From Psychromonas sp. (GTDB taxonomy: Bacteria; Pseudomonadota; Gammaproteobacteria; Enterobacterales; Psychromonadaceae): a DNA stretch of 38,216 nucleotides. Position 1 is the stretch's first letter. Each line of letters begins with the position of its first letter. Location of the stretch: positions 1-38,216 of the forward strand of contig JABXKR010000313.1 of NCBI GenBank assembly GCA_013619145.1, given 5' to 3'. Of this stretch, positions 29,607 to 32,719 are shown piece by piece. The notes below the pieces were generated by a model, which saw nothing but the letters and a program-made list of their open reading frames with translations, was not told the DNA's origin and did no database searches. The translations under genes were made by a program, and so were the position numbers.

Positions 29607-30278
29607 ATGGGTAAAAAAGTCAATTCGGGCGAATCTAAACCTGGCGTATTGAAAAAAAGTAGTTCGTCAAGTTCTAAACGCTGGATGCAAGAGCATGTAA
29701 ATGATTTTTATGTAAAAGAAGCGAATAAAAAAGGGTTGCGTTCACGTGCTGTTTTTAAGCTTGAAGAGATCAATAATAAAGATAAATTGATTCGTTCAGG
29801 AATGACAGTGGTTGATCTTGGCGCGGCTCCGGGTAGTTGGTCACAGTGGGCTGTTGATACCGTGGGGTTAAATGGTAAAGTCATTGCCTGTGATATTTTG
29901 CCGATGGACTCAATTGCTGGTGTTGATTTTTTACAGGGGGATTTCCGTGAGGAAGCTGTCTTAGATGCTTTATTAAATCGAATTGGTGATCATAAAGTTG
30001 ACGTGGTGCTTTCCGATATGGCCCCTAATATGAGCGGTAATGCCGCTATGGATCAACCTAAATCAATGTATTTAGTCGAGCTTGCTCTTGATATGTGTCG
30101 CTCTGTTTTAGTCAAAGATGGAAGTTTTATTGTTAAAGTATTTATGGGGGCTGACTTTGATGCATTTATGCTGGAAGTGCGCAAAATGTTTAAAACAGTC
30201 AAAACCCGCAAACCTGACTCCTCGCGCGCACGTTCGCGTGAAGTATATTTAGTAGCGACGGGTTTTAAACAGCAATAA
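29607..30278 (+). CDS. rlmE: 23S rRNA (uridine-2'-O)-methyltransferase RlmE
   Basis: RlmE (FtsJ/RrmJ) 2'-O-methylates U2552 of 23S rRNA in the 50S subunit. The 223-aa product has the SAM motif [24 protein letters not shown], and the catalytic Lys-Asp-Lys-Glu set spread through [24 protein letters not shown] and [10 protein letters not shown]. The start chosen is ATG 29607 with GAGGA eight bases upstream; a GTG at 29583 is in frame but lacks support. The N-terminus has a Ser/Lys-rich extension ([17 protein letters not shown]) longer than in E. coli. Its last eleven codons are copied in the tandem array that follows. Confidence 0.97.
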
Positions 30279-30662
30279 TGTATCTTCTAGCTATTAATAA
30301 TGGCTTTTGCGATTAACTGTGTTGGTTAATTATATTTACTAGCGACAGGTTTTAAACTGCATTAATGTATCTACTCGCTTGTAGATGTGGCTATTAAATG
30401 ACTTTTACGATTAACTGTGTTGGTTAATTATATTTACTAGCGACAGGTTTTAAACTGCATTAATGTATCTACTCGCTTGTAGATGTGGCTATTAAATGAC
30501 TTTTTCGATTAACTGTGTTGGTTAATCATATTTACTAGCGACAGGTTTTAAACTGCAATAATGTATCTACTAGCATGTAGATCTAGCTATTAATAATGAC
30601 TTTTGCGATTAACTGTGTTCGCAAATTATATTTACTAGCGACAGGTTTTAAACTGTAGTAAT
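30244..30662 (+). repeat. tandem array of ~98-bp units derived from the rlmE 3' end
   Basis: Unit starts are 30244, 30331, 30429, 30527 and 30627 (partial); unit lengths are 87, 98, 98, 100 and about 36 bp. The first unit includes the last codons and stop of rlmE. Units 2 and 3 differ by one base. Each opens TATATTTACTAGCGACAGG and contains a GATTAACTGTGTT block. Units 2-4 carry an extra 11-13 bp relative to unit 1 (in unit 4, CTAGCATGTAGAT followed by another CTAG). The dyad ATTAAC-N7-GTTAAT in units 1-3 is replaced in unit 4 by TTTGCGA-N10-TCGCAAA. There are no spacers, so this is not CRISPR. The array fills most of the rlmE-ftsH gap, which is short in E. coli. Confidence 0.95.
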
Positions 30663-30703
30663 CTACAATCTAAATTTTTATTTCTTAACATGAGGTTTAC
30701 ATC

Positions 30704-32623
30704 TTGAACGATATGGCAAAGAACCTGATATTGTGGTTAGTCATCGCAGTAGTATTGATGTCTCTATTCCAAGGTTTTGGAACAGATGAAACAAAACAAT
30801 CCCAAATCGATTACACATCATTCGTCAAAGAAGTTAGCCAAGGGCAGATTCAACAAGTCCAAATTAACGGACAAGAGGTCAAGGGTGTAAGAAGTAATCA
30901 AAGCCGTTTTGTTACTTATATTCCAGCACCAGATCTGGATCTGTTAAACGATCTGATAAAAAACAACGTACTAGTAGAAGGTACACCACCCGAAGAAACA
31001 AGTTTCTTAGCCTCTATTTTTGTTTCTTGGTTCCCTATGTTGCTATTAATTGGCGTGTGGATTTTCTTCATGCGGAATATGCAAGGTGGCGGTAAAGGTG
31101 GGGCAATGTCATTTGGTAAAAGTAAAGCCAAGCTGATGGGTGAAGACCAGATAAAAACAACTTTTACTGATGTCGCAGGTTGTGATGAAGCGAAAGAAGA
31201 TGTTAAGGAGCTTGTTGATTACTTAAAAGATTCAACAAAATTCCAAAGACTGGGAGGCCGAATTCCGACTGGTGTATTGTTAGTTGGTCCACCGGGAACA
31301 GGTAAAACACTACTGGCTAAAGCGATTGCTGGTGAAGCAAAAGTACCTTTCTTTGCTATTTCAGGCTCTGATTTTGTTGAAATGTTTGTTGGTGTTGGTG
31401 CATCTCGTGTGCGTGATATGTTTGAGCAGGCAAAAAAATCAGCACCTTGTATCATTTTTATTGATGAAATTGATGCTGTTGGTCGCAAACGTGGCTCAGG
31501 TGTCGGTGGTGGTAATGATGAGCGAGAGCAAACATTAAACCAATTGTTAGTAGAGATGGATGGTTTTGAAGGTAATGAGGGTATTATCGTGATTGCTGCG
31601 ACTAACCGTCCTGATGTGCTTGATGCTGCTTTATTACGACCGGGTCGTTTTGATCGCCAAGTGGTGGTTTCTCTACCAGACGTTCGTGGACGTGAACAGA
31701 TTCTAAATGTTCATATGCGTAAAGTGCCACTTGCCGATGATGTGCAAGCTAGTATTATTGCGCGTGGTACTCCTGGGTTTTCTGGTGCAGACCTTGCAAA
31801 CTTAGTTAATGAAGCTGCTCTTTTTGCCGCTCGTGGAAATAAACGCACTGTTGATAAACTGGATTTTGAACAGGCACGAGATAAGATCTTAATGGGTGCA
31901 GAACGTCGTAGTTTAGTGATGCGTGAAGAAGATAAAGAATCAACCGCTTATCATGAAGCTGGGCATGCAATTGTGGCTAAATTAGTGCCGAAGCATCATC
32001 CTATTCATAAGGTAACGATTATTCCTCGTGGTCGCGCTTTAGGTGTGACGCAATTTTTGCCTGAAGGTGATCAGATCAGTCAAAATCGCATTGAATTAGA
32101 AAGCAGTATTTCTGTTGCATACGGTGGGCGAATTGCGGAAGAGCTTATCTATGGTCTTGATAAAGTATCTACCGGTGCTTCTCAAGATATTAAACAAGCA
32201 TCATCAATTGCCCGTGCAATGGTCACTGAGTGGGGATTCTCTGAAAAATTAGGCCCTATTTTATTAACAGCTGATGAAAATACACTGCGCTCTAATGTTG
32301 TTTCGCATGAAACTGGTAAAATTATTGATGATGAAGTTAAATCCTTTATTGAGAAAAATTACCAACGTGCCGAAAAAATATTAACCGATAATCTCGACAT
32401 ATTGCATGCAATGAAAGATGCGTTAATGAAATATGAAACGATTGATAGCAATCAGGTTGATGACTTAATGGCTCGAATTGAAGTGCGCCCACCATCAGAT
32501 TGGGATGATGAAGACGAGACTAAAAGTGAAGCAACTGAAGAAAAAACTGAAACGGTTATTGATAGTCGCGAAGAAGCATCAGCAGTTGATATTGAAACTG
32601 AAGAAAAAAAAGACGATAAATAA
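30704..32623 (+). CDS. ftsH: ATP-dependent zinc metalloprotease FtsH
   Basis: FtsH is a membrane-anchored AAA+ protease that degrades SecY, LpxC, sigma-32 and other substrates. The 639-aa product has two N-terminal membrane helices (about 7-25 and 100-122), Walker A GPPGTGKT (195-202), Walker B IIFIDEID and the SRH region ([20 protein letters not shown]). The zinc site is HEAGH (417-421). The GAGG site at 30692-30695 is eight bases from TTG 30704 but seventeen from ATG 30713, so the TTG start ([11 protein letters not shown]) is preferred. The C-terminal tail is acidic and variable. It follows the repeat array and has a strong terminator. Confidence 0.97.
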
Positions 32624-32653: not shown

Positions 32654-32680
32654 AAAAACCTAAGCTTGCTTAGGTTTTTT
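32654..32680 (+). terminator. intrinsic terminator after ftsH
   Basis: AAAAACCTAAGC (32654-32665), TT, GCTTAGGTTTTT (32668-32679), followed by more T. It may allow partial readthrough to folP, which starts 47 bp later. Confidence 0.9.
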
Positions 32681-32719
32681 ATTATCTCCTCTTTTATTAT
32701 CTGCTCTTTTATTATTGAG
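32678..32719 (+). repeat. 15-bp direct repeat, about 2.7 copies, before folP
   Basis: TTTATTATCTCCTCT (32678-32692), TTTATTATCTGCTCT (32693-32707) and a partial third TTTATTATTGAG (32708-32719). The first two copies differ by one base. They run from the ftsH terminator T-run to the ribosome-binding region of folP. Confidence 0.8.

Follow-up and report, generated by a model that had tools for sequence, protein, structure and literature searches.

The end of rlmE carries a conserved element that spans the stop codon and that, in all 12 of the Psychromonas loci in which this gene end has been duplicated, is retained as a noncoding copy beside ftsH. This element is more important than the tandem array that fills the rlmE-ftsH gap of the window, the whole stretch of 38,216 nucleotides of Psychromonas sp. 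DNA analysed here; the array itself is an ordinary kind of feature. We think it probable that the rlmE end and the first bases past its stop form a cis-element of ftsH, most likely a core promoter, that has been split by tandem duplication.

Some ~35 bp at the end of rlmE, together with ~6 bp past the stop, would also serve ftsH as a cis-acting element, in all likelihood a core promoter whose -10 box, of the TAnnnT form, ends 37-39 nt before the ftsH start (TTG), and promoter activity would depend on TAGTAATCT within the 38-nt element (Table 1). In the ancestral state a single piece of DNA would do both jobs, and the rlmE end would be held to VATGFKL-TAG-TAnnCT. Upon tandem duplication the upstream copy would take over the coding end and drift, and the ftsH-proximal copy would shed its coding role and be kept by selection as a pure cis-element. 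In the window the duplicated stretch, together with an added spacer of ~60-70 bp, would have been amplified to four units and a partial one, presumably by slippage or unequal crossing-over.

Organization of the array in the window

Table 1. Features of the rlmE-ftsH region of the window
Feature	Position	Strand	Remarks
rlmE (23S rRNA 2'-O-methyltransferase) CDS	29607..30278	+	derived, freed 3' end, QQ-TAA
Unit 1, 87 bp	30244..30330	+	actual rlmE tail and spacer; without ATCTAC/GTAGAT dyad
Unit 2, 98 bp	30331..30428	+	relic tail YLLATGFKLH*
Unit 3, 98 bp	30429..30526	+	relic tail YLLATGFKLH*; 1 base different from unit 2
Unit 4, 100 bp	30527..30626	+	relic tail YLLATGFKLQ*; dyad TTTGCGA/TCGCAAA at 30602-30625
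Partial fifth unit	from 30627	+	relic tail YLLATGFKL*
ftsH-proximal copy	30628..30665	+	ancestral end of rlmE with the conserved 38-nt element (TAGCGAC...TTTTAAACTGTAGTAATCTA); noncoding in the window; kept in 12/12 duplicated Psychromonas loci
Candidate -35 hexamer TAGCGA	30636..30641	+	putative; 17-nt spacer; weak match (3/6)
Candidate -10 hexamer TAATCT	30659..30664	+	putative; TAnnnT form
ftsH leader	30666..30703	+	Shine-Dalgarno-like GAGG at 30692-30695; identical in P. antarctica
ftsH (ATP-dependent membrane protease)	30704..32623	+	TTG start, or ATG 9 nt later as in the E. coli record

The gap between rlmE and ftsH in the window is 425 bp long and is filled by the units, the first of which starts inside rlmE. 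Tandem Repeats Finder reports two arrays in the window, one of them the rlmE-ftsH array, which is arranged head to tail with a score of 620, 3.8 copies, a period of 98 and 92% matches. The original prediction had described an array that consists of copies of the rlmE end, was built up by tandem duplication and had a recent step at its middle units. This description holds, including the sizes of the four units and the partial fifth. Units 2 and 3 do differ by a single base (1 mismatch in 98 bases). Units 1 and 4 are the more diverged ones, as had been claimed: unit 1 aligns to the other units with 13-15 gap columns, and unit 4 differs from unit 2 by 10 mismatches and 2 gap columns. The relic tail had been given as YLLATGFK plus stop; the tail is present in the later units, but the stop comes after one or two more codons, and across all units the tail reads YL(V/L)ATGFK. 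The described switch of dyad is likewise found, with ATTAAC/GTTAAT in units 1-3 (7-bp arms in unit 3) and TTTGCGA/TCGCAAA in its place in unit 4. A second dyad, ATCTAC/GTAGAT, absent from the original prediction, is present in units 2-4. The unit 4 hairpin lies at the same place as that at 30507-30527 and has a different right arm, which looks as if it had been copied from its own left arm by quasi-palindrome correction.

Two sequences, CAATAATG and TATTAATAATG, are common to units 1 and 4 and are missing from units 2 and 3. Given these shared sequences and the near-identity of units 2 and 3, the array is as expected if its middle had been copied last. Since the genome (G000, with the window on contig 86) is a draft of 3.95 Mb in 336 contigs and is 85.6% complete, the exact copy number rests on one assembly.

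Position of the ancestral rlmE end

The gap was compared in the 22 of 24 Psychromonas genomes in which rlmE was found. Ten of these have a gap of 45-53 bp, with an rlmE that ends VATGFKL-TAG and is followed by TAATCT or TAACCT; the KL-TAG ending is also the commonest form outside Psychromonas. The remaining 12 have a gap of 94-425 bp and an rlmE that ends otherwise (KG, KA, KP, KE, QQ or SV), and all 12 have a noncoding copy of the VATGFKL-TAG-TARTCT end before ftsH. In P. antarctica, the neighbour of the window in the DNA tree (support 93/89, not starred), the single-copy rlmE end runs into a 38-nt leader identical to that after the last copy in the window. Because this single-copy end continues into the same leader, it is the last copy in the window that holds the ancestral end of rlmE (ATGFKL-TAG-TAATCT), whereas the stop that rlmE uses today (QQ-TAA) lies in a derived copy. 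The origin from the rlmE end put forward in the original prediction therefore stands in that the array is built from this end, but the ancestral end sits in the last copy and not in the first. The TAGTA core is found in the last copy only; the four upstream copies read CATTA or CAATA.

A conserved motif at the rlmE stop

The motif [AGT]TAGTAnn[CG]T was found in the rlmE end or the gap at 93 of 107 loci, against 0.0038 expected per locus from its density in the flanks. Loci L034-L036, which repeat L006, L005 and L010, were dropped before counting. At 76 loci the motif overlaps the rlmE stop (TAG and the next six bases), and at 16 it lies separately in the gap, namely in 12 Psychromonas, 3 Aliivibrio and 1 Enterobacter; L099, whose gap of 690 is a parsing artefact in which a stop precedes the start codon, is not included among the displaced loci. 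The distances that follow are counted to the ftsH TTG, and 9 has to be added where an ATG 9 nt further on exists and is the start. The motif lies 36-40 nt from ftsH at the 16 displaced loci, though their gaps span 76-425 nt, and in the 12 duplicated Psychromonas the noncoding copy lies 37-39 nt before the start at any gap length from 94 to 425 bp. At the 76 overlapping loci the distance is 31-47 nt in 61 and 49-179 nt in 15. The strict motif is missing from 14 of the 107 loci, and a relaxed form is missing within 75 nt of ftsH in 15. By eye, a displaced relic is seen at two Colwellia loci (L042 and L100) in the variant form TAGTAAATTA, and TATCCT is the variant of E. coli and Kosakonia; all of these stand outside the motif count.

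Across the order, TAGTAnnnT lies 25-50 nt before a conserved ftsH start in at least 170 of 394 genomes and in 31 of 115 genera, and a reversed-pattern control gave one match, in G174. A Shine-Dalgarno pattern was meant as the denominator for this count; it matched just 36 of the 394 genomes and is unusable as such because its spacing varies.

Constraint on the ftsH-proximal copy and drift of the coding tail

When the 12 duplicated species are compared in 10-nt intervals placed relative to the motif, identity is 0.27-0.36 within the spacer, rises to 0.58-0.97 in the element and is 0.45-0.62 beyond it. The 38 nt of the noncoding copies reach an identity of 0.829, whereas third positions of those rlmE and ftsH codons that share their first two bases reach 0.581, and the element has the higher value in 66 of 66 species pairs, which are not independent of one another. 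The coding tail behaves differently in the two groups of species: in the last six rlmE codons (LVATGF), identity at third positions is 0.867 in the 10 overlapping species, versus 0.676 elsewhere, and 0.439 in the 12 duplicated species, versus 0.581 elsewhere. The value of 0.867 in overlapping as opposed to 0.439 in duplicated species therefore shows that the coding end is released once a second copy takes the other role. By these counts, the ftsH-proximal copy is kept under constraint while the freed coding tails drift.

This bears on a simpler explanation, according to which tandem duplication in an AT-rich gap has recently thrown up both the array and the noncoding copies as by-products, without selection. 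The single base that separates units 2 and 3 is in keeping with neutral slippage, as is the tendency of this gap to duplicate. In Psychromonas sp. CD1 (L010, 2190-2345) the element and the ftsH leader form a perfect 78-bp duplication in two copies, so that the ribosome-site region occurs twice; this is a fresh step of the duplication process. The G005 genome, a single 4.6-Mb contig, has a 46-bp array of 4.4 copies of an unrelated unit in the gap (L025, 2170-2371), and Shewanella hanedai has a 46-bp array of 2.3 copies there (L056, 10683-10789). Among 106 loci, four tandem arrays fall in 8.3 kb of gap versus 46 in 1,598 kb elsewhere, a comparison that is biased in that arrays lengthen the gap and the remainder is mostly coding. 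What neutral slippage leaves unexplained is that the copy adjacent to ftsH is retained in 12 of 12 species, at an identity of 0.829 when the spacer is at about 0.3 and third positions are at 0.581. As an account of the whole we hold it to be possible but doubtful; as the source of the extra copies in the window neutral slippage may be correct.

By eye, L024, the sister of L025, has a single stretch of the kind that is repeated there, and the S. hanedai array looks as if it were built from the KL end of rlmE and the leader.

A candidate promoter of ftsH

That the constrained element would be a promoter is favoured because TAnnnT keeps the key -10 bases, because a start site at its position would give a short leader and because E. 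coli has TTGAAA-16-TATCCT at this place. The TAnnnT form retains the three most important bases of a -10 box (T1, A2 and T6); the window has TAATCT, and TAnn(C/G)T is found in 93 of the 107 loci. The E. coli hexamers lie 40 nt upstream of the aligned TTG, which E. coli also has, and 49 nt upstream of the ATG, 9 nt further on, at which ftsH begins in the E. coli record. Promoters that lie inside the end of an upstream operon gene are a known kind, of the sigma-70 type. The Psychromonas element resembles them in its TAnnnT box 37-39 nt before the next start, and differs in its poor -35 hexamer, in a conserved stretch between the boxes and in the unusual conserved TAG that precedes the -10 box. 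The stretch between the proposed hexamers is conserved as strongly as the hexamers, and for this reason the element is unlike an ordinary promoter. A scan for consensus promoters made no call at the element itself, including its TAGCGA -35 hexamer, and called two other sites on the plus strand, both TTGCGA-18-TATATT. The four upstream copies in the window still read TAnnnT (TAATGT) at the same offset, and the last copy is therefore not set apart by this box alone. We infer both the promoter nature of the element and its action on ftsH from sequence.

The operon of rlmE and ftsH in E. coli (rrmJ-hflB), which has a heat-shock promoter, has the same gene order. According to the portion available of one source, the E. 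coli genes are transcribed from promoters upstream of rlmE, one of them a heat shock promoter, and no internal promoter is mentioned in that portion (PMC9927249); the Psychromonas element, in contrast, lies between the genes. ftsH is described as RpoH-dependent in a second source (PMC8745692). A mapped ftsH start site or an internal promoter was not found in the open-access literature searched, as far as the text of these sources was available.

Further promoter-like sequences occur in the array. On the plus strand, TTGCGA-18-TATATT is present at 30307-30336 in unit 1 and at 30603-30632 in unit 4, and in those units only; it is a possible array-born promoter, and its second occurrence ends just within the upstream edge of the element. 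On the minus strand, between 30242 and 30652, TTTAAA-16-TATAAT or a one-base variant of it faces rlmE in each of the five copies; these pairs derive from the tail sequence and may be due to chance.

The conserved element could also act in the mRNA and not as DNA, as a processing site, in translational coupling or as a structure of the ftsH leader, and duplication would split it alike. An RNA role would suit the near-fixed distance of the element before the ftsH ribosome site at the displaced loci and the stretch between the boxes that is as conserved as the boxes, and the whole stretch 30240-30720 folds somewhat better than its shuffles (z -2.16; 3 of 100 shuffles as good). Set against this, RNAalifold found 0 pairs over 20 of 29 loci, in an alignment whose leader part is poor, Rfam gave no matching family with E up to 5, and the folding of single units is hardly better than that of shuffled sequences (z -0.14 to -1.96). 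We regard an RNA role as unlikely, and as less likely than a promoter role. The original prediction held that the array would alter readthrough or mRNA processing before ftsH; such an effect may exist, with single units folding weakly and the whole stretch somewhat better than shuffles. A conserved structured RNA or riboswitch-like leader was rejected on the RNAalifold and Rfam results. To the eye, the KL codons of Vibrionaceae and Shewanella seemed able to pair with the sequence ahead of the ribosome site, but RNAalifold gave no pair in common, and this candidate led no further.

A terminator-like hairpin (30222-30241; 7 pairs, 5 of them G-C) with a T-rich tail lies in the rlmE end just before unit 1. 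Between 30150 and 30760 there are 3 terminator-like sites versus 0.3 expected. The hairpin could be relevant to readthrough into ftsH.

Gain and loss of the duplication

The original prediction allowed that unit number may vary between strains; in this comparison, with one genome per species, copy number differs between species: P. antarctica has no array, and sp. CD1, G005 and S. hanedai have arrays of other units. In the DNA tree a single clade of the 12 duplicated species is rejected (AU p 0.0016), as is a single clade of the 10 single-copy species (AU p 0.0010); these p values are only a guide, because the two groups were defined with a first tree already at hand. P. antarctica falls within the duplicated group in the DNA trees, and the fewest state changes on the tree are 3, with the outgroups coded as single. 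These rejections and the three state changes together therefore indicate either repeated gain of the duplication or its loss in P. antarctica. In the protein tree the branching order is different, and the nine-species single-copy clade lies inside the duplicated species.

The window array is similar to intergenic tandem repeats (VNTRs) in its head-to-tail units of ~98 bp, its near-identical middle units and a copy number that differs between species. It differs from them in that its unit carries the end of the neighbouring gene and in that one copy is tied to the conserved element of the next gene.

Implications for overlapping coding and control sequences

FtsH is an essential membrane protease in E. 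coli (PMC8831704). Tentatively, and with more doubt than conviction, we speculate that an undescribed cis-element of ftsH over the rlmE stop dictates the last residues of rlmE and its TAG in many genera of the order, that Psychromonas, Aliivibrio and perhaps Colwellia and Enterobacteriaceae, with their variant motifs, have escaped this by duplicating the gene end, and that the array in the window consists of evolving, re-spaced and partly decayed copies that tune ftsH. A conserved ftsH element over the rlmE stop that is split by duplication in several lineages was not found in the open-access literature searched, within the parts of it that were accessible. If the element is a promoter of its own, the rlmE end would be under a double constraint and ftsH could be expressed apart from the promoters upstream of the operon. 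The duplications would then be a natural experiment in which a coding end has been parted from an overlapping control element more than once. As they separate the coding end from the control element, the cost of such overlaps would be measurable. The genome with the array would represent a species in which the distance between rlmE and ftsH and the copy number may be changing now.

Spacer origin, mobile elements and assembly

For about 60-70 bp of the unit, no match could be detected in rlmE, in the leader or over the first 900 nt of ftsH. Local alignment of the spacers on both strands to 120 nt of upstream rlmE sequence, the whole of rlmE, the leader with 60 nt and 900 nt of ftsH gave a lowest p of 0.063 in 24 comparisons, each with 1000 mononucleotide shuffles; the third 'spacer' in this set was a double unit, as the unit starting CATATTT was missed by the core pattern. 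Because the spacer has no detected source, plain duplication of the gene end and leader does not cover the whole unit.

Integration into the 3' ends of genes with duplication of the att site is a known system, and the gap could be the scar of such a site-specific event, in which an insertion in the rlmE 3' end gave it a new end, left the old end as a distal att and then decayed. The layout is that of an integrated element, with a replaced gene end, a foreign-looking spacer and the ancestral end downstream, so that a gene end is followed by a second copy of that end, and the spacer is without a detected source in rlmE, the leader or early ftsH. Unlike the known system, however, the rlmE-ftsH locus showed neither a long insert nor a second site: 425 bp is the largest gap in the 106 loci (L099 left out), and a search of 24 Psychromonas genomes for the element core with three or fewer mismatches found no copy away from rlmE-ftsH, with 22 genomes matching there and two nowhere. 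There was no match in plasmids or phages and no exact match of the element core in viral contigs, and the piece duplicated in sp. CD1 includes the leader, which is not how an att site behaves. We consider an integration scar very improbable and reject a mobile-element origin on the lack of a long insert and of a second site in the loci and collections searched. A search for a relative of RlmE in viral contigs found none.

A dispersed repeat of the REP, ERIC or MITE type, which would have contradicted the origin from the rlmE end, was rejected as well: a 301-bp array query matched three places in the genome, all inside the array. A 98-bp stretch of the array compared with the 24 Psychromonas genomes gave, outside the rlmE-ftsH locus, only matches of 20-34 bases with E of 0.005 or worse.

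An assembly artefact, conceivable in a draft genome with an array of ~420 bp that may exceed the read length, is extremely unlikely and was rejected, as the units differ by defined changes and related gaps, one of them in the single-contig genome G005, also hold displaced elements and an array.

Downstream of this region, a 15-bp tandem repeat, TTTTATTATCTCCTC, is present in 2.6 copies at 32677-32715, immediately downstream of ftsH and ahead of the ORF that follows at 32715.
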